From NCBI GenBank assembly GCA_021790795.1, contig JAJYFU010000015.1, positions 1 to 40,464 on the forward strand: 40,464 nt of DNA. The letters run 5' to 3'. The notes under the pieces are model-generated. The model was not told where the DNA came from, did not search any database, and saw only the letters and a program-made list of their open reading frames with translations. The translations under genes were made by a program, and so were the position numbers. This DNA comes from Pseudomonadota bacterium. GTDB lineage: Bacteria > Pseudomonadota > Gammaproteobacteria > Steroidobacterales > Steroidobacteraceae. Shown here piece after piece: positions 1 to 14,479 of the stretch (its first letter is position 1; every line of letters begins with the position of its first letter).

Positions 1-51
1 CGCAGCAGCCAGGGCATGGCGGTATTCACCGGTATCGGCTACCCGTTCTGA
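1..51 (+). CDS. C-terminal end of a probable outer-membrane beta-barrel protein (partial, 5' truncated)
   Basis: Frame 1 reads RSSQGMAVFTGIGYPF* with an alternating polar/hydrophobic last strand and a terminal Phe, typical of OMP C-termini; stop TGA at 49-51. Confidence 0.5.
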   Translation, partial: RSSQGMAVFTGIGYPF

Positions 52-1061
52 GCCCGTCCGCCGGGCGGCTGGCGCCCCCGCAGATACCCCTCTTCGCGGA
101 ACCACTCCAGGGCGTCCTCGAAGGCCAGCCGGGCCGGACGGGACCGATACCCGAGCTCGCGCTCGGCTTTCTCGCTCGAGAAGTACATGCGCTTGCGGGC
201 CATGCGCACGCTGTCGACGGTCACGCGCGTGGGCTTGCCGCTCAGGCGCGCGATGCCCTCGGCGAAGTACGCGATCGGCAGCACCAGGCCATGCGGCAGC
301 TTCAGGCGCGGCGGGGCGCGTCCCGCGAGGCCGGTGATCTCGATGAGAATCTCGCGCAACGGGAGATTCTCCCCGCCCAGGATGTAGCGCTCCCCGACCC
401 GCCCGCGGTGAAACGCCAGCACGTGCCCGGCGGCGACGTCATCGACGTGCACGATGTTCAGTCCGGTATCCACGTAGGCCGGTGTGCGCCCGAGCGCCGC
501 ATCGAGCACGATCTGCCCGGTGGGCGTGGGCTTCAGATCGCGGGGCCCGACGGGAGCGGCCGGATTGACGATCACCACGGGCACGCCGCGCGCGGCCGCC
601 TCCAGCGCGACCTGCTCGGCGAGAAATTTCGAGCGCTTGTAGTGACCCGTCATGTCCGCGAGCGCCACGGGGGTCTGCTCGGTGCCGGGACCGCCGTCCG
701 CGGGCAAGCCGACGCAGGCAACGCTGCTGGTGTAGACGATGCGCGAAACGCCAGCTCGGTGCGCCGCATTGAGCAGATTGCGCGTCCCATCGACGTTGGC
801 GTGGTACATCGACTGCGGATTCGGCACCCACAGGCGGTAGTCCGCCGCGGCATGAAACACCGCGTCGCACCCCTCGACGGCCCGCCGCAGCGAGGGCTCG
901 TCGGTGAGGTCGCCGATCACTGTCTCCAGCGTGAGCGCCCGCAGATTGCGTCGATCCGAGCTGGCACGCACCAGCGCGCGCACCTGCCAGCCCGCCGCGA
1001 TCAGCGTGCGCGCGAGTGCTGCCCCGACGAAGCCACTCGCTCCCGTGACCAGCGCCTTCAC
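39..1061 (-). CDS. hpnA: Hopanoid-associated NAD-dependent sugar epimerase HpnA
   Basis: GTG start VKALVTGASGFVGAALARTL (Rossmann GxxGxxG), YKRSK catalytic motif, context next to hpnG/shc; the ORF-track start at 1667 is an over-extension. Confidence 0.85.
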   Translation of the reverse strand: MKALVTGASGFVGAALARTLIAAGWQVRALVRASSDRRNLRALTLETVIGDLTDEPSLRRAVEGCDAVFHAAADYRLWVPNPQSMYHANVDGTRNLLNAAHRAGVSRIVYTSSVACVGLPADGGPGTEQTPVALADMTGHYKRSKFLAEQVALEAAARGVPVVIVNPAAPVGPRDLKPTPTGQIVLDAALGRTPAYVDTGLNIVHVDDVAAGHVLAFHRGRVGERYILGGENLPLREILIEITGLAGRAPPRLKLPHGLVLPIAYFAEGIARLSGKPTRVTVDSVRMARKRMYFSSEKAERELGYRSRPARLAFEDALEWFREEGYLRGRQPPGGRAQNG

Positions 1062-1801
1062 GGCCTTGCCCTCCACTGCCCCGCCGTGAGCGCCCGGCGG
1101 GCGGGCAGATCCGGCTCCCCCAGGCGCGCGAGCATGTCGCATGCCGTGCGAAAGCGCCGGGCGAGCCTGTGGACCTCCGCAATGTTCCATGGGGTTAGCG
1201 CCAGACGCCACAGCAGGCTGCCCAGCGCGACCTTCCCTCCACGGCTCGCCGCGACCACCGGCTCGGGCAGCTCGTCGCCGGCGGTATCCACGATCACCCG
1301 CAACACCACGAACGGCACCGCCGCCGACGCGGCGAAGCGCGCCACGGCGGCGCTCTCCATGTCGATCGCCACACAGCCGGTCTCGCGCCAGGCGATCGCC
1401 TTGTCGAGCCGCGAGCCCACGGGGAAACGGCTGGTGAGCAGCGCGTCTTCGCTCACCTGACAATCGCGCGGCAGCGCCGCGAGCACAGCCGCGCGCCACG
1501 GCGCGTGCGCGGCAAGCGGTTGACCTTCGAGCACATGAACCTCCCGCGGCACGAGCACCGCGCCGCAGCGCAGCGCCGGATCGAGGCCACCGGCCGTTCC
1601 GACGCTGGCGAGCGCGGTCGCGCCGGCGCGCGCGAGCCGCTGCGCTGCGGCTTGCGCGGCATCCCACCCCATTCCACTGACGGTGAGCAGCGCATTGTCT
1701 TCGAGTTGCACGACCTCACCTGCGCTGGCCGCGGCCGGAGCGTCCGGGGCAAACGCCCGAGCCTCGGATGCGAGCGCCGCGACGATACCGACGCAGCTCA
1801 A
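1058..1801 (-). CDS. hpnG: Hopanoid-associated nucleoside phosphorylase HpnG (adenosylhopane to ribosylhopane step)
   Basis: VGIVAALASEARAF..., SVGTAGGLDP, VAIDMESAAVARFA typical of the nucleoside phosphorylase fold; probable TTG start at 1801; 4-bp overlap with hpnA. Confidence 0.8.
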   Translation of the reverse strand: MSCVGIVAALASEARAFAPDAPAAASAGEVVQLEDNALLTVSGMGWDAAQAAAQRLARAGATALASVGTAGGLDPALRCGAVLVPREVHVLEGQPLAAHAPWRAAVLAALPRDCQVSEDALLTSRFPVGSRLDKAIAWRETGCVAIDMESAAVARFAASAAVPFVVLRVIVDTAGDELPEPVVAASRGGKVALGSLLWRLALTPWNIAEVHRLARRFRTACDMLARLGEPDLPARRALTAGQWRARP

Positions 1802-1808
1802 GAGCTCT

Positions 1809-3773
1809 CTAGCTCCCCTGGCGATAGGCCGCCAGCGCCCAGAGCGGAAAGTAGGCGCTGTAGCCGTGATACTTGAGGTAGAACACTCGGGGAAAGCCCG
1901 GCGCGGTGAAGCTCGGGTGGCTCCACAGGCCGTGCTGCTGCGTACGCAGTAGAAACTCGACGCCACGGTGCGCCGCCGGCGAGGCCCGCTCGCCGGCGGC
2001 GATCAACCCCAGCACCGCCCAGGCGGTCTGGTAGGGCGTGCTGACGAACGGCCGATCGCCGTAGCGCGCCCGATCGTAACTGTCGTTGCTCTCGCCCCAC
2101 CCGCCGTCGGCGTTCTGGCGCGCGCGCAGCCACTCGACGGCGCGCACCACCGCCGGATCCGTGGCCGCGACGCCGGCGGCCTCGAGCGCCACCAGCACCG
2201 ACCAGGTTCCGTAGATGTAGTTGGTGCCCCAGCGGCCGAACCACGAGCCGTCCGGCTCCTGTTCGCGCCGCAGAAACGCGAGCGCCCGCTCGAGCGCCGG
2301 GCGATCCTGCGGCCGGCCGGCGCGGGCCAACACCGTGACCACCCGCGCGGTCACGTCGCTCGTCGGAGGATCGAGCAGCGCGCCATGATCGGCAAAGGGA
2401 ATGTAATTGAGGTTGTAGTGCGTGTTGTCGGCATCGAAGGCCGCAAAGCCGCCGCCGTCGCTCTGCATGCCGACCAGCCAATCGAGCGAGCGCCCGATGC
2501 TGTGCGCATAGCGCTCGCGACCCTGCGCCGCATGCATCGACCAGGCCACCACCGCGGTGTCGTCGAGATCCGGATAATGGGCATTGCCGTACTGAAACGG
2601 CCAGCCGCCGCTGCGCACCGCCGGCCGGCGGGCGCGCCAATCCCCAACCGGCTCGAGGATCTGGCGGGGCAGCAGCCAATCCAGGCCCCGGCATGCGCCG
2701 GCCAGACTCTCATTGTCGCCCAGCGCCTGCAGCGTCAGGCAGGCCAGGCCCGTATCCCAGACGGGGGAAACGCACGGCTGGCAGTAGGCGCGATCACCCT
2801 GCTCGACCACGAGCTTTTCCAAGGCGCGCTTGGCGGTCACGCGGCGCGGATCGTCGGGTCCGTAACCGAGCAGCACCATCATCTCCAGCGCATTGACCAT
2901 GGCCGGAAAGATGGCCCCCAGACCGTCCTCGCCATTGAGCCGCTCGATCGTCCAGCGCTCGGCTCGACGCAGCGCGCGCGCGCGCATCGCCCGCGGAATC
3001 AGCGGGTCGAGCACGCGGAACGCCCGATCGAGCATGAAGAACATCCGGGCGAGCCATCGGCCTCGCTCGGGCAGGCGGAAGTAGTGACGCTCGTCCTCCG
3101 GGGCCACGATGAACAGCTCCCGGATGTTCACCCGCTGCGGATTGCGCGCCACGGGCTTGAGCGTACACAGCACGAACAGCGGCACCATCACGGTGCGCGA
3201 CCAGTAGGAGACCTTCTCCACATGGAACGGGAACCATCGCGGCAGGAGCATGATCTCCACCGGGATGTACGGCACGGCCCGCCAGGGGACCTGTCCGAAC
3301 AGCGCCAGCGCGATACGCGTGAACACATTGGCGTGCGCCGCGCCACCGCGCGCGAGCACCGCCTCGCGCGCCCGACGCATGTGCTCGGATTGCGGATCGT
3401 CGCCGGCGAGCTTCAGCGCGAAATACGCCTTGATGGTGCACGACAGATCCAGCGCCCCGTCCTGGTAGAGCGGCCAGCCACCCTCGGGCTGCTGGTGCTC
3501 GCGCAGGTAGACGGCCAGGCGCTTCTGCAACCGCGCATCGATCTCATCCAGGTAGTGCATCATCATGATGTACTCGGCCGGGATGGTGCAGTCGGCCTCG
3601 AGCTCGAACACCCAATGGCCGTCCGGCTGCTGCAGACCGAGCAGCGCATCGCGCGCGACGCGAATGGCCCGCTCCAGCGCATCCGGGCGCGCGGCGCGCT
3701 GGAGCGTCTCGCCCAGCGGCCAGGCGGGCGCCGCCGGCTCGGCGCGCGCCTCGAGGTCAAGCGGCTCGTTCAT
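1809..3773 (-). CDS. shc: Squalene-hopene cyclase
   Basis: DXDD motif (DLDDTAVVAWS), multiple QW-type repeats (QQPDGHW, QNADGGWGES, QQPEGGWPLY), about 650 aa; start MNEPLDLE at 3773. Confidence 0.97.
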   Translation of the reverse strand: MNEPLDLEARAEPAAPAWPLGETLQRAARPDALERAIRVARDALLGLQQPDGHWVFELEADCTIPAEYIMMMHYLDEIDARLQKRLAVYLREHQQPEGGWPLYQDGALDLSCTIKAYFALKLAGDDPQSEHMRRAREAVLARGGAAHANVFTRIALALFGQVPWRAVPYIPVEIMLLPRWFPFHVEKVSYWSRTVMVPLFVLCTLKPVARNPQRVNIRELFIVAPEDERHYFRLPERGRWLARMFFMLDRAFRVLDPLIPRAMRARALRRAERWTIERLNGEDGLGAIFPAMVNALEMMVLLGYGPDDPRRVTAKRALEKLVVEQGDRAYCQPCVSPVWDTGLACLTLQALGDNESLAGACRGLDWLLPRQILEPVGDWRARRPAVRSGGWPFQYGNAHYPDLDDTAVVAWSMHAAQGRERYAHSIGRSLDWLVGMQSDGGGFAAFDADNTHYNLNYIPFADHGALLDPPTSDVTARVVTVLARAGRPQDRPALERALAFLRREQEPDGSWFGRWGTNYIYGTWSVLVALEAAGVAATDPAVVRAVEWLRARQNADGGWGESNDSYDRARYGDRPFVSTPYQTAWAVLGLIAAGERASPAAHRGVEFLLRTQQHGLWSHPSFTAPGFPRVFYLKYHGYSAYFPLWALAAYRQGS

Positions 3774-3919
3774 GCGAATCTCGGCGCGCAGGCCGCCGGC
3801 ACATCGGCGCGGGAGCCACCACTTCGGCTGTTGATTGGGCAAGGATGCATGGTTGTTCTTGGGCTAAGCCCTCGGTCCCGTGGTTCCGGCGAGCCCGTTC
3901 CTTCGGTTGAACGGACAGC

Positions 3920-5059
3920 TCAAGGCGCGGCGCCTTGGCACGGCATGCTTTCGCTGTATTCATCCGGGGCGCGCTCCCCGCCGGCGCCGTCGAAGGCGGG
4001 CACGCCCGCCGGCCGCAGCGGCACTTCTTGTGCCGCGAGCGGCAGTCCGCGCGCGGCACGCTCGAACAGGCGCCGCAGCATCGCATCGTTGCGCACCGCC
4101 AGGTTGGTCAGGGTCTGAGTCATCGCCACGGCCGAGCGCGACACCTTCACGTGGCTGCCGGCGGTGAAACCCGGATGGTCGTGGATCTTGCGCAGCGTCA
4201 GCGCCGCGAGCCCGATCGCCCACAGGCAGAACTTGCGGATGCCGGGCTCTTCGCCCGGGATCAGCAGGGTAAAGGCGAGCGCATTGCGCAGGTGGCGGTG
4301 CGCCACCCCGACCAGCTCCATCATGCCGGCATGAAAGCGCGGATCGCTGCGCTCGGGAGTCAGGGTGGCGAGGTCGACGCCATGGCGGCTGAACACCTCC
4401 TGCGGCAGCCAGCACGCCCCGCGCGCGCGATCCTCCCAGACATCCTTCAGGATGTTGGTCATCTGCAGACCTTGACCGAAGGACGGCGCCAGCGCGTAGA
4501 GCCGCCGATGGTGGTGCTCGATCTGGCCCGAGTAGGCGCAGAACAGCTCGGTGAGCGTCTCGCCGACGATCCCGGCGACATAGTAGCAATAGGCGTCCAG
4601 ATCGGTCGCGCGCGCCAGGCCCCGCAGGCTCGCGGTCTGCTGGAATTGATGCATGCCGTGGGCCATCACCTCGATGCAGCGGCAGATGGCGGCGCGTTGG
4701 CGCGGCTCGAAGCGCGCGACCACGCGCATCACGCGCGCGGTGTTGGCCACCAGATCGCGCTCGGCCGCGAGCGCGCTGTCGCTCAGGTGCGGCACCACAT
4801 CGGCGGCGAAGCGCTGCGCATCCTCCCGGCCCTGCACCACGGCCGTGAAGCGCCGCAGAAAGCGATGAGTATCGGCGGCCGAGAGCCTCGGCTCGTCCTC
4901 GATCGTGTCGGCGATGCGGCACAACAGATACGCGCTGGTGACCGGCGTGCACAGCGCCGCGGGCAGCTGCGGAATGGTCAACGCGAAGGTGCGCGACACC
5001 AGCGGCAGGATCTGGTCCTGGAAAGCCGCGTCGGACTCGGGCAGATCTGGCATGAGCAT
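3920..5059 (-). CDS. Squalene synthase, farnesyl-diphosphate farnesyltransferase (Erg9/FDFT1) type
   Basis: SRTFALTIPQLP, first Asp-rich motif DTIED, YCYYVAGIVGETLTELF, second motif TNILKDVWED followed by CWLPQEVFSR; located between shc and the ispA-type gene. Start ambiguous (5059 or 5053). Confidence 0.88.
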   Translation of the reverse strand: MLMPDLPESDAAFQDQILPLVSRTFALTIPQLPAALCTPVTSAYLLCRIADTIEDEPRLSAADTHRFLRRFTAVVQGREDAQRFAADVVPHLSDSALAAERDLVANTARVMRVVARFEPRQRAAICRCIEVMAHGMHQFQQTASLRGLARATDLDAYCYYVAGIVGETLTELFCAYSGQIEHHHRRLYALAPSFGQGLQMTNILKDVWEDRARGACWLPQEVFSRHGVDLATLTPERSDPRFHAGMMELVGVAHRHLRNALAFTLLIPGEEPGIRKFCLWAIGLAALTLRKIHDHPGFTAGSHVKVSRSAVAMTQTLTNLAVRNDAMLRRLFERAARGLPLAAQEVPLRPAGVPAFDGAGGERAPDEYSESMPCQGAAP

Positions 5060-5070
5060 CCCGGAAGAAA

Positions 5071-5976
5071 TCAGTTGCGGCGCGTCAGCAGCCACTCGGC
5101 CACCGCCCGCAGCGGCTCGGCGGCCGCGCCGAAGGGCGCGAGCGATTCGAGCGCCTGCTCGCTCAGACGTCGGACACGCTCCTGAGAGGCGGGAATGCCG
5201 AGGATCACCGGATACGTCGACTTGCCGCGCTCGCGGTCCGATTGGGCCGCCTTGCCGAGCGTGGCCGTGTCGCCGAGCTCATCGAGCAGATCGTCCTGGA
5301 TCTGAAACGCCAGCCCGATCGGCGCGGCGAATTCGGCCAGGGCGCGCTCCCGATGCGGCTCGAGGTCGGGCACACACGCCGCACCCATCATGACGCTGGC
5401 GCGGATCAGCGCCCCGGTCTTCAGCGCATGCATGCGCTCGACCTGCTCGATGTCGAGGCGGCGTCCTTCGGACTCCAGATCGATCGCCTGCCCGCCGGCC
5501 ATGCCGAGACTGCCGATGGCCTCGGCCAGCAGACCCACCAGGCGCGCGCGGACCGCGCTCGAATCGGGTAATCCCGGATCGCGCGCGAGCAGCTCGAAGG
5601 CGAGCGACTGCAGCGCATCGCCGACCAGCAGCGCGGTGGCCTCGTCGTAGGCCTTGTGACAGGTCGGACGGCCACGGCGCAGATCGTCGTCATCCATCGC
5701 CGGCAGATCGTCGTGCACCAGCGAATAAACGTGCATCAGCTCGAGCGCGCAGGCGGCCGCCTCCACGCGCTCCTCGGGCAGCCCCAGCGTGCGCGCCGTG
5801 GCGAGCAGCAGGATCGGGCGCACGCGCTTGCCGCCGCCAAGAACGCTGTAGCGCATCGCCGCGTGCAGCCGCTCGGGCCAGCGGTCCGCGCGCGGCAGGC
5901 GGCGCGCCAAGGCATCCTCCATGCGCGCGCGCCATTGCTCGAGCTGCGCCGGAAAGAACTCAGGCGCCGCTGACAC
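5071..5976 (-). CDS. ispA: (2E,6E)-farnesyl diphosphate synthase / polyprenyl synthetase
   Basis: GGGKRVRP, FARM DDLPAMDDDDLRRGRPT, SARM-like FQIQDDLLD. Confidence 0.93.
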   Translation of the reverse strand: MSAAPEFFPAQLEQWRARMEDALARRLPRADRWPERLHAAMRYSVLGGGKRVRPILLLATARTLGLPEERVEAAACALELMHVYSLVHDDLPAMDDDDLRRGRPTCHKAYDEATALLVGDALQSLAFELLARDPGLPDSSAVRARLVGLLAEAIGSLGMAGGQAIDLESEGRRLDIEQVERMHALKTGALIRASVMMGAACVPDLEPHRERALAEFAAPIGLAFQIQDDLLDELGDTATLGKAAQSDRERGKSTYPVILGIPASQERVRRLSEQALESLAPFGAAAEPLRAVAEWLLTRRN

Positions 5977-7117
5977 GGCGACCTTCCCGGTTCGCGGCCT
6001 GGCCCACCTCGCCGAGCGGGATCCTCACCTCGGCGGGCACCTGCGCCTTCAGCGGCGGCTCCTCGTAGAGCAGCGGCAGCTCGGGAGCCATCGGGCCGGT
6101 CAGGCGCGGCCCGCGCAGCGAGCGCCACAGCGCCTTCAGCGGATGGGCAAACGCGTCATCGACCGCGGTGCCCTCGTAGCCGCAGTGCGCCATGCAGTTG
6201 TTGCACAGCGGGTTGCGTCCGACGCCGTAGCGCTCCCATTCGGTATCCGCCATCAGCGCGCCGAAGCTGTCGGCATACCCCTCTCCGGTCAGCAGATAGC
6301 AGGGCCGCTGCCAGCCGAAGATGTTGTACGTCGGTGTGCTCCAGGGCGTGCACTGGTAGGCCTGATTGCCGGCGAGGAAGTCGAGAAACAGCGCCGAATG
6401 GTTGAACGACCAGCGCGCGCGGCGGGTGCGGCCGCGGGCGAAGATCGCCCGGAACAGGTTCTTGCTCGCGCTGCGGCCGAGGAACACGTCCTGACGGGGC
6501 GCGTGCTGATAGCTGTACCCCGGCGAGACCATGATCCCCTCGACGCCGAGCCGCATCGCGGTGTCGAAGAAATCGGCCACGTCGTCGGGATCTTCGTTCT
6601 GAAACAGCGTGCAGTTGACCGTCACGCGGAAACCCTTGGAGCGGGCCAGGCGGATCGCCGCGACCGCCTTGTCGAACACGCCTTCCTGACAGACCGACTC
6701 GTCGTGACGCTCGCGGTTGCCGTCCAGGTGCACCGAGAAGGTGAGGTACGGGGACGGACGGTACTCGTCGATGTGCTTGGCGAGCAGGAGCGCGTTCGTG
6801 CACAGATACACGAAACGCTTGCGCTGCACGATACCGTCCACGATCTGCGGCATGTCCTTGTGGATCAGCGGCTCGCCGCCCGGGATCGACACCATGGGCG
6901 CGCCGCATTCCTCCACGGCGGCGAGCGCCTTTTCCACCGAGAGGCGCTGCTGCAGGATGTCCTTCGGGTAATCGATCTTGCCGCATCCGGCACAGGCCAG
7001 ATTGCACTGAAAGAGCGGCTCGAGCATCAGCACCAGCGGATAGCGCTTCTGCCCGCGCAGCTTGCGGCTGATGATGTATCGGGCGACCCGGTACTTTTGA
7101 ATCAGTGGAATACCCAA
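5960..7117 (-). CDS. hpnH: Adenosyl-hopene transferase HpnH (radical SAM)
   Basis: CNLACAGCGKIDYP radical SAM cluster motif, GGEPLIH, full-length similarity pattern to HpnH (MGIPLIQKYRVARYIISRKLRGQKRYPLVLMLEPL). Confidence 0.95.
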   Translation of the reverse strand: MGIPLIQKYRVARYIISRKLRGQKRYPLVLMLEPLFQCNLACAGCGKIDYPKDILQQRLSVEKALAAVEECGAPMVSIPGGEPLIHKDMPQIVDGIVQRKRFVYLCTNALLLAKHIDEYRPSPYLTFSVHLDGNRERHDESVCQEGVFDKAVAAIRLARSKGFRVTVNCTLFQNEDPDDVADFFDTAMRLGVEGIMVSPGYSYQHAPRQDVFLGRSASKNLFRAIFARGRTRRARWSFNHSALFLDFLAGNQAYQCTPWSTPTYNIFGWQRPCYLLTGEGYADSFGALMADTEWERYGVGRNPLCNNCMAHCGYEGTAVDDAFAHPLKALWRSLRGPRLTGPMAPELPLLYEEPPLKAQVPAEVRIPLGEVGQAANREGRRVSGA

Positions 7118-7192: not shown

Positions 7193-7795
7193 CTAACCGT
7201 GCACCAGCGCACGCACGGCCGCCTGGTGATCCCGCCCGATCCGCTCCCACTCCTGGGTGAACCAAGGCGTGAAGCACGCGGTGCCCGCATCGCGCATCTC
7301 GGCATCGAGCGCCTCGGGTCCGATCCAGCGCCACGCTGTGACCTCGGCCCCATTGACGCGCACCGGCGCGGCCGAGCGCCCGATGAATACCGAGCACAGT
7401 TCATGCTCGGCACCCGATCCGTCGAATTGTGCTTGATACTTGAATTTGAATAGAAACTGCAAGGGGCACTTGAGCCCCAGCTCCTCGTTGAGCCGCCGAT
7501 GAATAGCCACGTCCATGCTCTCGGCCTGGCGCGGGTGGCTGCAGCAGCTATTCGACCAGTATAGCGGCCAGAGCCGCTTGCCCGCTGCGCGCTGCTGGAT
7601 CAAGAGCTCGCCGCGGCCATTGAAGATGAACAGCGAGAACGCCCGGTGCAGCAGCCCCGAGCCCTCGTGACAGCGGGCCCGGCTCGCGTGTCCGACCTCG
7701 CGATCGTCGTCGTCCACCAGAATAAGGGACTCGCCTCCGGTCACACCGTCGCTCAGTGGCAACAGTTTGGGCGAAGCGCCGCTCTGATCCATCAT
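7193..7795 (-). CDS. idi: Isopentenyl-diphosphate delta-isomerase, type I (Nudix)
   Basis: WSNSCCSHPR, AIHRRLNEELGL (Nudix-like box), WRWIGPEAL, WFTQEW; internal ATG at 7795 preferred over the ORF-track start at 7936. Confidence 0.9.
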   Translation of the reverse strand: MMDQSGASPKLLPLSDGVTGGESLILVDDDDREVGHASRARCHEGSGLLHRAFSLFIFNGRGELLIQQRAAGKRLWPLYWSNSCCSHPRQAESMDVAIHRRLNEELGLKCPLQFLFKFKYQAQFDGSGAEHELCSVFIGRSAAPVRVNGAEVTAWRWIGPEALDAEMRDAGTACFTPWFTQEWERIGRDHQAAVRALVHG

Positions 7796-7842
7796 GCCGT
7801 CGACCCCGGCGCAGGCCCGAGCGTGTACCCTATGCATCTTGC

Positions 7843-7902
7843 AGGGATTTGAAACCCTCTGGCTCTGTCGCTCATTGGCAGTCCGCAGCGTAGGGATTCC
7901 TA
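7843..7902. promoter_or_regulatory. Candidate operator region in the divergent idi/hpnI intergenic gap
   Basis: Two near-palindromes sharing AGGGATT: AGGGATTTGAAACCCT (7843-7858) and TAGGGATTCCTA (7891-7902). Confidence 0.3.
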
Positions 7903-7950
7903 TGGACATGATAACCGGCTCCACGTTCACTATCACTCCTTGACGACATC

Positions 7951-9099
7951 ATGCTCGCTCTGGGCCTACTCCTTGGCATTCTCGCGCTCGGCTACACGGT
8001 CACAGCCTATCTGGCCGTGCGGCGGGCACGCAACGGTGGCGCCCGACAGCCCCCGCCGCAGCACCCCGCGGTGACGGTTCTCAAGCCGCTCTGCGGGGCG
8101 GAGCCGGGGCTCGAGCAGGCCCTCGACAGCCTGTGCGGACAGTGCGACTCGACTGTGCAGATCATCTTTGGCGTGCAGGATCCGGCCGATCCGGCCCTCC
8201 CGATCGTGCGCGCGCTGTGCGCGCGCTATCCGGCGCTCGACACCGCCATCATCGTCGATCCGAGCCGCCATGGGCACAGCGCCAAGGTCAGCAATTTGAT
8301 CAATATGATGCGCGCGGCACGCCATGACTATCTCGTGCTCGCCGATAGCGACGTGCACGTGCCGCCCGGGTATCTGGCGGGCGTGTGCGCACCCCTCGCG
8401 GATCCTACCGTCGGTATCGTCACGTGCCCATACCGCGGCCGGCCGGGCCGCGCCGTGGGCACGGCGGCCCTGTGCTCCGAGCTCGGCGCGCTGTTCGTCA
8501 ACGACTGGTTCATGCCCTCGGTACGGGTAGCCTCCTGGTTCGGCTCCCGGGCATTCGCTTTCGGAGCCACCATCGCCTTGCGCCGCTCGGTGCTCGAGAG
8601 CATCGGTGGATTCGCCGCCATCGCCGATCAGCTCGCGGACGACTATCGCCTGGGCGAGCTCACCCGCCGCCGCGGTCTGCGCACGGTGCTCTCTCCTGTC
8701 GTGGTGGAGACGACGCTCGATGAGGCGGGATGGCGGGCGCTGGTGCAGCATGAGACCCGCTGGCTGCGCACGATCCGGGCGGTGCGGCCGGCCGGCTATG
8801 CCAGCCTGGGGATAACCTTCAGCTTGCCCGTGGCAGCACTGGGGTATGCGCTGGCGGGCGGCGGGCCGGCCGCTCTGGCCCTGCTGATCGCCACCGCGAC
8901 GGCCCGCGTGATGCTACATTTCGCAGCCGGCGCCCAGGGCCCCGGCCCGATCGGATCCTGGCGCCGCCTCTGGCTGCTGCCGGTGAGCGACGTTTTGGGC
9001 TTTACGCTGTGGTGCTGGGGCTTCGCGACGCGCGAAGTTCAATGGCGCCATGCGCGATACCGGGTGGCCCGTGATGGCTCCGCCCGCCCCGTTACTTGA
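7951..9099 (+). CDS. hpnI: Hopanoid biosynthesis glycosyltransferase HpnI
   Basis: N-terminal TM, PAVTVLKPLCGAEPGLEQAL, LADSDVHV, GGFAAIADQLADDYRLG (GT2 ceramide-glucosyltransferase-like), followed by hpnJK. Confidence 0.92.
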   Translation: MLALGLLLGILALGYTVTAYLAVRRARNGGARQPPPQHPAVTVLKPLCGAEPGLEQALDSLCGQCDSTVQIIFGVQDPADPALPIVRALCARYPALDTAIIVDPSRHGHSAKVSNLINMMRAARHDYLVLADSDVHVPPGYLAGVCAPLADPTVGIVTCPYRGRPGRAVGTAALCSELGALFVNDWFMPSVRVASWFGSRAFAFGATIALRRSVLESIGGFAAIADQLADDYRLGELTRRRGLRTVLSPVVVETTLDEAGWRALVQHETRWLRTIRAVRPAGYASLGITFSLPVAALGYALAGGGPAALALLIATATARVMLHFAAGAQGPGPIGSWRRLWLLPVSDVLGFTLWCWGFATREVQWRHARYRVARDGSARPVT

Positions 9100-9111: not shown

Positions 9112-10536
9112 ATGATGAGAACCCTCTTTCTGCATCCCCCTTCCTTCGACGGCTTCGATGGCGGGGCGGGCTCGCGTTATCAGGCCAAGCGGGAGATTCG
9201 CTCGTTCTGGTACCCCACTTGGCTCGCGCAGCCGGCCGCGCTGGTGCCGGACAGCCGCCTGCTCGATGCGCCCGCCGACGGGCTGTTGATGGCGGACGTG
9301 CTGCCCCTGGCGCGCCAATACGATCTGGTGATCATGCACACCAGCTCGCCGTCATTTCCGACCGATGCGAAAGTGGCGGAGCTGCTGAAAGAGGAGAACC
9401 CCCGCCTGCTCATCGGCATGGTCGGCGCCAAGGTGGCGGTAGATCCGGACGGCTCGCTCAGCGCCTCGAACGCCATCGACTTCGTCGCCCGCGAGGAATT
9501 CGACTACACCTGCAAAGAGGTGGCCGAAGGCCGCCCGTTCAAGGACATCACCGGTCTGTCCTTCCGCCGGCCTGACGGCACGATCGAGCACAACACGCCG
9601 CGGGCGATGATCGAGAACATGGACGATCTGCCGTGGGTGACCCCGGTCTACAAGCGCGATCTGACCATCGAGAACTACTTCATCGGCTATCTGCAGCACC
9701 CTTACGTCTCGTTCTATACGGGGCGCGGCTGCCGCTCCAAGTGCACGTTCTGCCTCTGGCCGCAGACCGTCGGCGGCCACCGCTACCGCGTGCGCAGCGC
9801 CGCCAGCGTCATCGACGAGGTGCGCTGGATCAAAGAGAACATGCCGCAGGTGAAGGAGATCTTCTTCGACGACGACACCTTCACCGACTTCCGCCCGCGC
9901 GTCGAGGAGATCGCCCGCGGCCTCGGCAAGCTCGGGGTCACCTGGTCGTGCAATGCCAAGGCGAACGTCCCGTACGAGACGCTCAAGATCATGAAGGACA
10001 ACGGCCTGCGGCTGCTGCTGGTCGGTTACGAGTCCGGCAACGATCAGATCCTGCACAACATCAGGAAGGGCCTGCGGACCGACATCGCGCGCCGCTTCAC
10101 CAGCGACTGCCGCAAGCTCGGCGTGATCATCCACGGCACCTTCATCCTGGGGCTGCCCGGGGAGACGGCCGACACGATCCGCGAAACCATCAAGTTCGCC
10201 GTCGACATCAATCCGCACACCATCCAGGTGTCGCTCGCCGCCCCCTATCCGGGCACGCAGCTGTACCAGGAGGCGGTCGAGAACGGCTGGCTCGCCGCGT
10301 ACGAGAATCTCAACCTGGTCAACGACCGCGGCATTCAGCTCTCACCGATCAGCTACCCGCACCTGCCGGCCAAGGAGATCTATCACGCAGTGGAGACCTT
10401 CTACAAGCAGTTCTATTTCCGCCCGCGCAAGATCGCCGAGCTGACCGGCGAGATGCTGCGCAGCTGGGAAATGACCAAGCGGCGGCTGCGCGAGGGTGTC
10501 GAGTTCTTCCGCTTCCTCAACGCGCACGAGGCATGA
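9112..10536 (+). CDS. hpnJ: Hopanoid biosynthesis-associated B12-binding/radical SAM protein HpnJ
   Basis: MMRTLFLHPPSFDGFDGGAGSRYQAKREIRSFWYPTWLAQPA; radical SAM CRSKCTFCLWPQ; context. Confidence 0.95.
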   Translation: MMRTLFLHPPSFDGFDGGAGSRYQAKREIRSFWYPTWLAQPAALVPDSRLLDAPADGLLMADVLPLARQYDLVIMHTSSPSFPTDAKVAELLKEENPRLLIGMVGAKVAVDPDGSLSASNAIDFVAREEFDYTCKEVAEGRPFKDITGLSFRRPDGTIEHNTPRAMIENMDDLPWVTPVYKRDLTIENYFIGYLQHPYVSFYTGRGCRSKCTFCLWPQTVGGHRYRVRSAASVIDEVRWIKENMPQVKEIFFDDDTFTDFRPRVEEIARGLGKLGVTWSCNAKANVPYETLKIMKDNGLRLLLVGYESGNDQILHNIRKGLRTDIARRFTSDCRKLGVIIHGTFILGLPGETADTIRETIKFAVDINPHTIQVSLAAPYPGTQLYQEAVENGWLAAYENLNLVNDRGIQLSPISYPHLPAKEIYHAVETFYKQFYFRPRKIAELTGEMLRSWEMTKRRLREGVEFFRFLNAHEA

Positions 10537-10546
10537 GCCCACCCAG

Positions 10547-11416
10547 TTGAAGGCCCTGGTCGTCACCGCGGACGATTTCGGTCTGCACGAGGCGGTCAAC
10601 GAAGCCATCGAGCAGTCCTTCCTCCAGGGCGTACTTTCCGCGGCGAGCCTGATGGTGGCAGAGGCTGCCGCCGATGACGCGGTGCGGCGCGCGCATGCGC
10701 TGCCGCAGCTGGCGGTGGGGCTGCATGTCGTTCTCGCCGACGGCCAAGCGGTGCTGCCCCCGCGGCGCATTCCGGCGCTGGTCGACGGCGCGGGCCGCTT
10801 TCCCGACCGGATGGCACGCGAGGGCGCACGCTTCTTCGCGCTGCCGCGCGTCAGGCGGCAGCTCGAAGCGGAAATCCGCGCGCAGTTCGCGGCCTTCGCC
10901 GCCACCGGGCTGACGTTCGATCACGTGAACGCTCACAAGCACTTTCACCTGCATCCGACGGTGCTCGGCATGCTGCTCGCGATCGGCGCCGAATACGGCT
11001 CGCCGCCGATGCGCTGGCCGCGCGAGCCGCTCTGGGTTGCGCGCCGCGCCGGCGGCGGGCTCGCCGGCGCGCTGCTCACGCCGTGGCTCGCGCTGATGCG
11101 CCGGCGGCTCAGAGCTGCCGGCGTCGAGTGCAACGAGACGGTCTTCGGGATCTGCACCACCGGCGCAATGGACGAGGCGCAGCTGCTCGACATCCTCGCG
11201 CATCTGCCCGAAGGCCTCAGCGAAATCTATCTGCACCCCGCGACGCGCAACGGGCTGACGCCCGGCATGGGCGCCTACCGCCATCGCGACGAGCTGCAAG
11301 CCCTGCTCAGCGCGCGCGTGCGCGCCGCCGTGCGCGCCTCGGGCGCGCGCACCGGCGGCTTCCGGGCCCTGACCGACTCTCCGCGCCCGAGCGGCGAGTC
11401 GCGCCGCGTCGCATGA
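10547..11416 (+). CDS. hpnK: Hopanoid biosynthesis-associated deacetylase HpnK (YdjC/ChbG-like)
   Basis: LKALVVTADDFGLHEAVNEAIEQ; NAHKHFHLHP metal-binding motif; probable TTG start at 10547. Confidence 0.9.
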   Translation: MKALVVTADDFGLHEAVNEAIEQSFLQGVLSAASLMVAEAAADDAVRRAHALPQLAVGLHVVLADGQAVLPPRRIPALVDGAGRFPDRMAREGARFFALPRVRRQLEAEIRAQFAAFAATGLTFDHVNAHKHFHLHPTVLGMLLAIGAEYGSPPMRWPREPLWVARRAGGGLAGALLTPWLALMRRRLRAAGVECNETVFGICTTGAMDEAQLLDILAHLPEGLSEIYLHPATRNGLTPGMGAYRHRDELQALLSARVRAAVRASGARTGGFRALTDSPRPSGESRRVA

Positions 11417-12396
11417 GAATCACGTTCCGGATCGCGCTGTTGGCGGGTCTGGTCGTGCTGATCGGGCTGATCGCGCACGAAGGCACCGCCATCCTCACGC
11501 CCATCGAGCGCGCCGGCTGGGTGCTGTTGTGGCTGGCGCCGCTGCGTGCCGTGCCGATCCTGCTCGACTCGCGCGGATGGCGGGCGCTGATTCCGGAGCC
11601 GGTCAAGGCGGGACGACTGTTCTGGATCGCCTCGGTGCGCGAGGCGGTCAATCGCCTCCTGCCGGTGGCCAACATCGGCGGCGAGCTCGTGGGCATCCGG
11701 CTGCTCGCCGCGAGCGGCGTAGACGGCGTGACCGCCGCCGCCAGTGTCACCACCGAGATTCTGTTGACGCTCTTCAGCCAGTACCTGTTCGTGCTGGTCG
11801 GCGTCACCAGTCTGCTGAGCCTCTCGGGCGCGGTGCACTCCGAGAGCGCCGTGCTGATCGGTCTGGCCGCGTTTCTGCCGGTGATCGTGACGCTGGCCGT
11901 GCTGCTGCACTACGGCTCGCTGTTCGAGCGTCTGGAGCACGTCGCGGTGCGCATGCTCGGCGAGGAGATGCTGCGGTTCCTCAACGGCAAGTGGGCCGCG
12001 CTCGATGCGGCGATCCGCGCGCTGATCAGCGATTGGACGCGTTGGGCGCTCACGCTGCAGTGGCAGATCGCCGGGCTCGGAGCGGGCGCCGTCGAGACTT
12101 GGCTGGCTCTGCGCTGGCTCGGGCATCCGGTGGGCTTCGAGACGGCTATCGTGTTGGAAAGCCTCACCCAGGCGGCGCGCACTTTCATCTTCGTGGTACC
12201 CGCCGGCATCGGAGTGCAGGAGATCACGCTGGTCGGGATCGGGAGCCTCCTCGGGATCGATCCCCAGATGGCCCTCGCCCTCTCGCTGACCAAGCGCATG
12301 CGGGAGATACTCTTTGGCGTACCGGCGCTGCTATCCTGGTACTGGAGTGAGGGAAGAAGGGAGTTACAGCATGTCCGTGGTTCCAGCCGACTTTGA
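11413..12396 (+). CDS. hpnL: Hopanoid-associated integral membrane protein HpnL (lysylphosphatidylglycerol synthase TM-region family)
   Basis: Multiple TM segments, REAVNRLLPVANIGGELVGIRLL, VPAGIGVQEITLVGIGSLLGI; ATGA overlap with hpnK stop. Confidence 0.87.
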   Translation: MRITFRIALLAGLVVLIGLIAHEGTAILTPIERAGWVLLWLAPLRAVPILLDSRGWRALIPEPVKAGRLFWIASVREAVNRLLPVANIGGELVGIRLLAASGVDGVTAAASVTTEILLTLFSQYLFVLVGVTSLLSLSGAVHSESAVLIGLAAFLPVIVTLAVLLHYGSLFERLEHVAVRMLGEEMLRFLNGKWAALDAAIRALISDWTRWALTLQWQIAGLGAGAVETWLALRWLGHPVGFETAIVLESLTQAARTFIFVVPAGIGVQEITLVGIGSLLGIDPQMALALSLTKRMREILFGVPALLSWYWSEGRRELQHVRGSSRL

Positions 12397-13234
12397 GACC
12401 ACCGCCATCCGCCTGGGATCGCCGCAGCACAAACGGTTGCTCGCTCAGTTCTTCATCGAGACCCATCGCGAATACGACCCGGAAAAGATCGACTGGCCGC
12501 CGCTCTCGGGCGAGGAGCTGCGGCGCCTGAGGGGTCTGCCGTTCTGGCAGGAGGCGGTCGCAACCGAGAACGTGACCTCCAGCACCGTCACGGCCGCCGC
12601 GGCCCTGGAGAGCGACCCGCAGCTGAAGCGCGCCATCGCGATGCAGGGCTTCGAGGAGCAGCGCCATGCGCGCCTGCTCGCGGCGCTGACCGCGCATTAC
12701 CGGATTCCGATCGAGTTTCCCGCGCCCTATGCGCCGCGCGACCTGGAGGATGATTTTCTCTTCGCCGGCTTCGGCGAGTGCTTCGATTCGTTCTTCGCCT
12801 TCGGATTGTTCGCGCTGGCGCGCGACTCGGGCCTCTTTCCCGCCGCGCTGGTCGAGGTGTTCGAGCCGGTGATGGAGGAAGAGGTGCGCCACATCCTGTT
12901 CTTCGTCAACTGGGTCAAGGCGCGCCGCGCCGATCTGCCCTGGTGGCGGCGCGCGGCGTTCCGCCTGCGTTGCGGCTCGATCATTCTCAAGCAGGTCGCC
13001 TCGCGCGTGAAGACGGCGCGCAGCCTCGGCGGCGGCGCGCGGGAGTCCAGCGAGAACTTCACGCTCACGGCCCACCGGGACATCGGCCCGCCGGTGAGGC
13101 TGCGCGGACTGCTCGGGACCTGTCTGCGGGAGAACGACCGGCGCATGGGGCATTACGATGCCCGGTTGGCGCGGCCGCGGCTCGTGCCGTCCATCGCGCG
13201 CGTGCTGTACCGGCTGGTGCCGGCGAGCCTCTGA
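12371..13234 (+). CDS. Ferritin-like (class I) diiron-domain protein of unknown substrate, hopanoid-cluster linked
   Basis: E66 (ATEN), E96xxH99 (EEQRH), E136 (GFGEC), E171xxH174 (EEEVRH) form the E/ExxH/E/ExxH four-helix diiron signature; GGGAG Shine-Dalgarno just upstream; 26-bp overlap with hpnL. Confidence 0.8.
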   Translation: MSVVPADFETTAIRLGSPQHKRLLAQFFIETHREYDPEKIDWPPLSGEELRRLRGLPFWQEAVATENVTSSTVTAAAALESDPQLKRAIAMQGFEEQRHARLLAALTAHYRIPIEFPAPYAPRDLEDDFLFAGFGECFDSFFAFGLFALARDSGLFPAALVEVFEPVMEEEVRHILFFVNWVKARRADLPWWRRAAFRLRCGSIILKQVASRVKTARSLGGGARESSENFTLTAHRDIGPPVRLRGLLGTCLRENDRRMGHYDARLARPRLVPSIARVLYRLVPASL

Positions 13235-13246
13235 GCGCGGCCGGCG

Positions 13247-14479
13247 ATGAACGCGTTCACGGCTCTGTTCACCGCGCTGGTGGCCACGGGCGCGACCCTC
13301 GAGTTGTGGCTCGCCGGCCGACAGATCAATGCCGTGCGCGCGCACCGTGAGCGCGTGCCCGAGCCCTTCGCCGGCGAGGTCACTCCCGATGCGCATCGCA
13401 AGGCGGCCGATTACACCGTGGCCAAGGCGCGCCTCGGGCGTATCGCCACGCTGATCGATGCGTTGATCACGCTCGGCCTGACCGTCGGCGGCGGCATCGC
13501 CGCGCTGGACGCGCTGTGGCGGCGCACCGGCTGGGCCGAGCCGTGGCTCGGGCTGGCGGTGATTGCCTCCGTGGCCGCGGGGGTCCTGCTGGTCAACCTG
13601 CCGCTGTCGCTCTGGCGGACGTTCCGGCTCGAGGCGCGCTTCGGGTTCAACCGCACGACCGTGCCCGTGTTCCTGACCGACCTGCTCAAGCAGATCACGT
13701 TGGCCGGAGTGCTCGGGGGACCGCTGGTGCTCGCCGCGCTGTGGCTGATGATGCGCGCCGGACCGGTATGGTGGCTGTGGGCTTTCGGCGGCTGCGTGGC
13801 GCTGATGCTCGCGCTCAGCTGGGCCTGGCCGGTGCTGATCGCGCCGCTGTTCAACCGTTTCTCGCCGCTTGCCGACCCGGCGCTGCGCGCACGCATCGAT
13901 GCGCTGCTCGCGCGCTGCGGCTTCCACTCGAGCGGCGTGTTCGTGATCGACGGCTCGCGCCGATCCGCCCACGGCAACGCCTATTTCACCGGATTCGGGC
14001 GGCACAAGCGCATCGTGTTCTTCGACACTCTGCTCCAGGACCTCGAGCCGCCGGAGATCGAAGCCGTCCTGGCGCACGAGCTCGGGCATTTCCGCCTGCA
14101 TCATGTGCGCTCGATGATGGCGGTGTCGATTGCGACGCTGTTCGCGGGCTTCGCGCTGCTCGGGTGGCTCGCGCGCCAAAGCGTCTTCTACGCCGCCCTC
14201 GGGGTCCCGCATCCCTCGCCGCACGCGGCGTTGCTGTTGTTCGCCCTCGCCGCGCCCGTGGTGTTGGAGTTCGCCACGCCGCTCGGCGCGATGTGGTCAC
14301 GCCGGCACGAGTTCCAGGCCGACCGCTTCGCCGCCTGCCACGCCGACGCGCGCCAGCTGGTGTCGGCGCTGGTGAAGCTCTACCGCAGCAATGCCAGCAC
14401 GCTCACACCGGACCGGCTGTATGCGGCGGTGCATTATTCGCACCCGCCCGCCACCGAGCGGATCGCCCGGTTGCGTTGA
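13247..14479 (+). CDS. M48-family integral membrane metallopeptidase, Ste24/CAAX-protease-1-like
   Basis: HELGHFRLHH zinc motif, EFQADRFA distal Glu motif, multiple TM segments, NRTTVPVFLTDLLK Ste24-like segment. Confidence 0.9.
   Translation: MNAFTALFTALVATGATLELWLAGRQINAVRAHRERVPEPFAGEVTPDAHRKAADYTVAKARLGRIATLIDALITLGLTVGGGIAALDALWRRTGWAEPWLGLAVIASVAAGVLLVNLPLSLWRTFRLEARFGFNRTTVPVFLTDLLKQITLAGVLGGPLVLAALWLMMRAGPVWWLWAFGGCVALMLALSWAWPVLIAPLFNRFSPLADPALRARIDALLARCGFHSSGVFVIDGSRRSAHGNAYFTGFGRHKRIVFFDTLLQDLEPPEIEAVLAHELGHFRLHHVRSMMAVSIATLFAGFALLGWLARQSVFYAALGVPHPSPHAALLLFALAAPVVLEFATPLGAMWSRRHEFQADRFAACHADARQLVSALVKLYRSNASTLTPDRLYAAVHYSHPPATERIARLR

Follow-up and report, generated by a model that had tools for sequence, protein, structure and literature searches.

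The 40,464-nucleotide stretch of Steroidobacteraceae DNA that we analyzed (hereafter the window) carries hopanoid genes in its first 12.4 kb, where shc, HpnA, HpnH, HpnI, HpnJ, HpnK and HpnL all score over the NCBIfam cut-offs. They are followed by an open reading frame (ORF) whose 287-aa product we refer to by the working name FER. The features of this region are as follows.

39-1667, minus strand: ORF with hpnA (sugar epimerase) as its 3' part, residues 204-529 (TIGR03466, 492 bits)
1058-1966, minus strand: hpnG-like phosphorylase (TIGR03468, 155 bits, slightly below the cut-off of 187)
1809-3842, minus strand: shc, squalene-hopene cyclase (TIGR01507, 818 bits)
3920-5095, minus strand: squalene synthase-like protein (TIGR01559, 115 bits, below the cut-off of 287)
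5071-5976, minus strand: ispA-type farnesyl diphosphate synthase (NF045485, 345 bits)
5960-7117, minus strand: hpnH, adenosyl-hopene transferase (TIGR03470, 537 bits)
7193-7936, minus strand: idi, type I isopentenyl-diphosphate isomerase (TIGR02150)
7951-9099, plus strand: hpnI, glycosyltransferase (TIGR03472, 416 bits)
9112-10536, plus strand: hpnJ, radical SAM protein, cyclitol ether (TIGR03471, 823 bits)
10496-11416, plus strand: hpnK, BHT-GlcNAc deacetylase (TIGR03473, 372 bits)
11407-12396, plus strand: hpnL (TIGR03476, 281 bits, cut-off 195.65); the ORF opens at 11083 and the start is tentative
12371-13234, plus strand: FER, predicted diiron ferritin-like protein of clade A, candidate hopanoid C-31 hydroxylase (287 aa)
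12566-12568, plus strand: FER ligand codon E66, helix 1, invariant
12656-12667, plus strand: FER ligand motif E96xxH99, helix 2, invariant
12776-12778, plus strand: FER ligand codon E136, helix 3, GxxE, invariant
12881-12892, plus strand: FER ligand motif E171xxH174, helix 4, invariant

Judging from the gene content, FER ends a near-complete and nearly self-contained hopanoid cluster that would lead to BHT cyclitol ether. The squalene synthase-like protein, which matches HpnC/HpnD more weakly than TIGR01559, is the only one in the cluster where many hopanoid clusters have hpnCDE. The position of idi between hpnH and hpnI is kept in most relatives, including Azomonas. On the other side, an M48-type membrane peptidase (13247-14479, plus strand) starts 12 bp past FER and is conserved there only in the nearest relatives.

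The FER ORF is translated over 287 codons without an internal stop. As the preliminary description of this DNA had claimed, it overlaps the end of hpnL by 26 bp and is preceded by a GGGAG ribosome-binding site immediately 5' of its ATG, both of which are borne out by the coordinates and the sequence. This start is backed by homologues with an identical starting point; an alternative in-frame TTG (12314), which would lengthen FER, is not required. The same description had pointed to a complete set of diiron ligands (E66/E96xxH99/E136/E171xxH174), and all six residues are found at these positions in the translation. They are identical across 26 homologues, with identity as low as 33%, and in the non-gap columns of 84 distinct FER sequences they are invariant (E66 83/83, E96 84/84, H99 84/84, E136 84/84, E171 82/82 and H174 82/82), the gaps corresponding to truncated copies. 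This invariance shows that the ligand set is not a chance motif. FER carries the ligand set of the ferritin-like diiron carboxylate superfamily, and it presumably binds iron at this E/ExxH/E/ExxH set and uses O2.

Profile searches returned no Pfam, NCBIfam or PHROG model that claims FER. AurF (PF11583) scores 14.5 bits where the cut-off is 29.6, in a match that spans only 38 residues, and Ferritin_2 reaches 12.7 bits against 24.7; rubrerythrin is absent from the Pfam matches listed for FER and MiaE gives no NCBIfam match. Across 32 family members, AurF is the best weak Pfam match (15/32, best E 2e-5), followed by rubrerythrin-like matches in 11/32, weak similarity to Ferritin_2, and a single member matching the COQ7-type PF03232 (E 0.055). 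The best profile match of FER among PDB sequences, the MiaE-like chain 5ux1, is not significant (E 0.12). The search of ferritin-like, MiaE-like and other families called for by the preliminary description has thus been made, with none over cut-off, and we rejected generic ferritin, MiaE and AurF identities, none of which reached its cut-off in Pfam, NCBIfam, PHROGs or PDB profiles. An AlphaFold2 model of FER is all-helical (mean pLDDT 85, pTM 0.83), with E66, E96/H99, E136 and E171/H174 each sitting on a long helix. This agrees with the helical architecture expected around the predicted diiron site. When the model was compared with the PDB using Foldseek, the nearest folds were ribonucleotide reductase R2 and R2-like ligand-binding oxidases, the matches being loose (TM about 0.5, best E 1.2e-3, 11-16% identity). 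Since no curated model claims FER and its fold matches are loose, the family appears to form a separate, previously unnamed group of ferritin-like diiron proteins. We found no earlier description of it in the open-access literature, a scope outside which most subscription journals lie.

The distribution of FER is closely tied to hopanoid synthesis. Among 385 alphaproteobacterial genomes sampled, 105 carry hpnH and 27 carry FER, and all 27 of the latter carry hpnH (P = 3.8e-17, hypergeometric, with kinship of the genomes ignored). The four FER-positive genomes among 369 gammaproteobacteria are all HpnH-positive, as are 14/14 of the other FER-positive genomes checked. This association does not reflect one inherited event, since the HpnH tree requires 13 or more changes of the FER trait. 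Conversely, 78 of the 105 HpnH-positive alphaproteobacteria, about three quarters, are without FER. The preliminary description had named homologues with an unrelated function, for example a tRNA hydroxylase, found mostly outside hopanoid clusters, as an outcome that would speak against it; instead, the FER family is confined to hopanoid producers. A true HpnJ is found in just 17/37 FER-positive genomes, and for this reason we dropped a specific role of FER in cyclitol ether formation. In one of these genomes (G003, that of locus L027), a second full-length HpnJ-like protein is encoded at C11:11038-12444 (720 bits), besides the copy adjacent to FER.

Gene neighborhoods reinforce this picture. 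In 32 of the 39 named genome-contig loci, FER comes after hpnK or hpnL, in line with the linkage suggested by the preliminary description. Reyranella FER loci have hpnN nearby and, in one case, hpnH too, and in Cupriavidus metallidurans both hpnH and hpnN lie within about 7 kb of FER. No hpn linkage is seen in Burkholderia or Caballeronia, nor at most of the loci read in the family of genome G169, which is probably Acetobacteraceae. FER also occurs on named plasmid-class replicons of Burkholderia, Caballeronia, Paraburkholderia and Cupriavidus, where hpnH is present too in 11/13 records. A conserved partner gene (reductase, ferredoxin) was sought beside the unlinked FER genes and not found; the recurring ORFs there are mostly overlapping antisense frames or synteny common to one genus. 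Likewise, FER's operon holds no redox partner, and no hydratase is consistently linked to FER. In one B. cenocepacia locus (L041, 13875-24013), the hpn-unlinked FER has a repetitive, adhesin-like ORF of great length some 1 kb away.

In a maximum-likelihood tree, FER sequences split into two clades, A and B, at 100/100 support. Clade A contains the window FER, Azomonas, Burkholderia, Cupriavidus, one Reyranella copy and most others, while clade B contains the second Reyranella copy, Methylococcus and others. Residues that distinguish the clades include A143/G, F156/L and Y262/F. Both clades are old. All B-positive alphaproteobacteria sampled are also A-positive, and the G169 family shows 18 tandem A-B pairs, with A first and 51-264 bp between the genes. 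This nesting of B in A is as expected if hexol needs pentol. In Methylococcus (L136-L142) we found clade B and no A, with B unlinked to hpnH in G531, which counts against a strict order of A before B.

We compared the distribution of FER with that of bacteriohopanepentol (BHpentol) and bacteriohopanehexol (BHhexol), the genes for which were stated to be unknown in a 2025 survey of 54 alphaproteobacteria, where a search of hpn neighborhoods yielded no candidate (PMC12583986). In that survey (Table 3), Enhydrobacter aerosaccus, a member of the Reyranellaceae near Reyranella, has 77% pentol plus hexol and 1% unsaturated BHPs, with both free and carbamoyl pentol/hexol present, and Reyranella-type genomes hold both A and B copies of FER. 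Acetobacteraceae make pentols in 9/10 strains, at 6-50% pentol plus hexol, and Hyphomicrobiales have 0-1% in all strains (PMC12583986, Table 3). FER is present in 79/155 genomes of the G169 family, the probable Acetobacteraceae, and in 0/155 genomes of the order of G294, which we take to be Hyphomicrobiales from an HpnH identical to that of Methylobacterium bullatum; the former count, obtained with the same profile, is a positive control for the latter. The Acetobacteraceae assignment draws on genome sizes of 1.9-7.7 Mb, on the 37% GC of G169, which at 2.0 Mb suits Commensalibacter-type members, and on a Komagataeibacter-like neighbor in one member, the best large match of L281 being to a TonB receptor of Komagataeibacter plasmids. 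Apparent Acetobacter plasmid matches of G169 cover no more than a tRNA-sized stretch, and motif searches of G169 for citrate synthase, PDC or AarC were negative. BHpentol cyclitol ether is among the products of Burkholderia cenocepacia, and Azotobacter vinelandii and Acetobacter are characterized pentol producers (PMC8560942); FER is present in B. cenocepacia and in the Azotobacter relative Azomonas. Methylococcus aminopentol carries hydroxyls at C-30 and C-31, according to the title of a reference, and clade B is found in 6/6 Methylococcus genomes seen, one of them assigned by a PmoC nearly identical to that of M. capsulatus. On the HpnH tree, two of the FER-positive genomes sampled, G195 (L171) and G318 (L224), share a clade with G372, an 8-Mb genome of uncertain order; they would be exceptions to the chemotype rule if they belonged to Hyphomicrobiales. 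The FER copy of G195 is split over two contigs.

The agreement fails for the other methanotrophs. FER is found in Methylococcus and one sister genus among 34 genera of Methylococcales sampled, and it is missing from a genome that its PmoC, nearly identical to 6cxh_C, places near Methylotuvimicrobium. Aminopentol is nevertheless produced by Methylomonas and other type I methanotrophs, and aminotetrol by Methylotuvimicrobium alcaliphilum. A nonhomologous route must therefore exist, and FER is not the sole one. Strictly anaerobic Desulfovibrio make aminotetrol as well, which also implies a route independent of O2. Overall, FER presence agrees with chemotype in Reyranella, Burkholderia, Azotobacter relatives, Methylococcus, the probable Acetobacteraceae and Hyphomicrobiales, and its distribution largely follows BHpentol/BHhexol production.

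Together, these findings leave us highly confident that FER has a dedicated role in hopanoid biosynthesis. The preliminary description had proposed an O2-dependent enzyme tailoring either the side chain or the rings. The tailoring role is strongly favored by the nesting of FER within hpnH genomes and, of the two activities then considered, hydroxylation of the side chain is favored over ring desaturation as the better fit to the distribution of FER, the activity itself being what we infer. Taking the ligands, the model, the restriction to hpnH genomes, the hpn linkage, the paralogues and the chemotypes into account, FER is probably an O2-dependent hopanoid side-chain hydroxylase. We further propose, more tentatively and with somewhat less than even confidence, that the family comprises two successive hydroxylases, A installing the C-31 hydroxyl of pentol and B the C-30 hydroxyl of hexol.

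The substrate, carbon position and redox partner that we infer are as follows. FER would be a hopanoid-dedicated diiron oxygenase of the ferritin-like kind, either soluble or peripheral to the membrane. Its clade A members would hydroxylate C-31 of BHT (C35 side chain), or of a precursor, to give BHpentol, to which clade B would perhaps add the C-30 hydroxyl, the order being BHT to pentol to hexol, before HpnI/K/J capping or carbamoylation. In the genome that the window comes from, capping of this pentol by HpnI/K/J would yield BHpentol cyclitol ether. An Fe(II)2 center held by four Glu and two His would react with O2 and two electrons, presumably supplied by a general cellular reductase, and the resulting diiron-oxygen species would take a hydrogen atom from the CH2 beside the tetrol and rebound the hydroxyl. 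Enzymes of the diiron superfamily routinely carry out such abstraction and rebound on unactivated sp3 carbons. Direct hydroxylation of a side-chain CH2 has been doubted, and oxidation plus hydration proposed instead (PMC12583986); diiron oxygenase chemistry would remove this difficulty. That FER does not track HpnJ fits an enzyme acting on the polyol, as Enhydrobacter has both free and carbamoyl forms.

Other roles have to be weighed against side-chain hydroxylation. Diiron ferritin-like proteins include desaturases, and FER might instead desaturate hopanoid rings (delta-6 and/or delta-11), with clades A and B differing in the bond oxidized. Genes for ring unsaturation are likewise stated to be unknown, and since unsaturated hopanoids too are produced in Burkholderia and acetic acid bacteria (PMC12583986, PMC8560942), these lineages do not separate the two activities. 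Others do: Enhydrobacter has abundant pentol and hexol with almost no unsaturated BHPs, while Reyranella has both clades, and Afipia broomeae has 43% unsaturated BHPs (PMC12583986), yet FER is absent from the order taken as Hyphomicrobiales. Moreover, unsaturation would not predict that B is nested in A, and a sterol-desaturase family protein has already been proposed for it, all of which makes a desaturase unlikely. We also consider unlikely some other O2-dependent tailoring, in which, for instance, the C-32 alcohol would be oxidized to a ketone that is then hydrated, or an as yet undescribed product would be formed. A route to pentols through a 32-oxo intermediate has been proposed (PMC12583986) and the lineage of the window is without a known hopanoid profile, but the partner hydratase is not consistently linked to FER, and direct hydroxylation accounts for the chemotype match in fewer steps.

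Two explanations place FER outside hopanoid chemistry proper. The preliminary description had suggested that it might guard the oxygen-sensitive radical-SAM enzymes HpnH and HpnJ, which FER could do by scavenging O2 or peroxide like a rubrerythrin. The overlap with hpnL and the rubrerythrin-like matches noted above would suit such a function. It is nevertheless disfavored, and in our view very unlikely, as most HpnH-positive alphaproteobacteria do without FER, HpnJ accompanies FER in fewer than half of the genomes, and the family comprises two specific paralogues and, although located away from hpnJ/hpnH in many genomes, is confined to hopanoid producers. Least credible of all is that a MiaE tRNA hydroxylase, an AurF-type N-oxygenase, a ferritin or an R2-type protein sits in the cluster by chance. 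These share the ligand pattern, and AurF and MiaE show weak similarity to FER, but no curated family reaches its cut-off and strict co-occurrence with hpnH is unexpected for such functions.

Bacteriohopanepentols, bacteriohopanehexols and aminopentol serve as biomarkers, both for particular bacteria and for methane oxidation. FER is a candidate for the missing enzyme that adds the extra hydroxyls to the hopanoid tail, a step behind widely used molecular fossils, and it has probably been missed so far because it lacks a family name and is often encoded at a distance from the hpn cluster. If our reading is correct, at least two independent routes lead to the same hydroxylation, one of them O2-dependent, with an unrelated route in most methanotrophs standing beside that of FER. 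This would bear on how pentol/hexol-type lipids in ancient sediments are read. If the family does consist of two successive hydroxylases, sedimentary penta- and hexafunctionalized hopanes would in part record an O2-dependent trait that belongs to defined lineages.

Among known systems, the AurF/CmlI N-oxygenases (PF11583) have in common with FER that they are soluble helical diiron oxygenases, but they differ in their sub-cut-off score and genomic setting. R2 and R2-like oxidases have the same general E/ExxH/E/ExxH layout, whereas FER is without a ribonucleotide reductase partner. MiaE and MiaE-like tRNA hydroxylases (5ux1) are diiron hydroxylases as well; the distribution of FER instead tracks hpnH. 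The COQ7-type ubiquinone hydroxylase, a family of which FER is not a member, offers a functional analogy as a diiron hydroxylase of an isoprenoid membrane lipid. Closest in genomic behavior are the hopanoid methylases HpnP and HpnR, and HpnO, which like FER are accessory tailoring genes that only some hpnH genomes possess and that frequently lie outside the hpn cluster. These use radical-SAM or aminotransferase chemistry, in contrast to the diiron/O2 chemistry proposed for FER.
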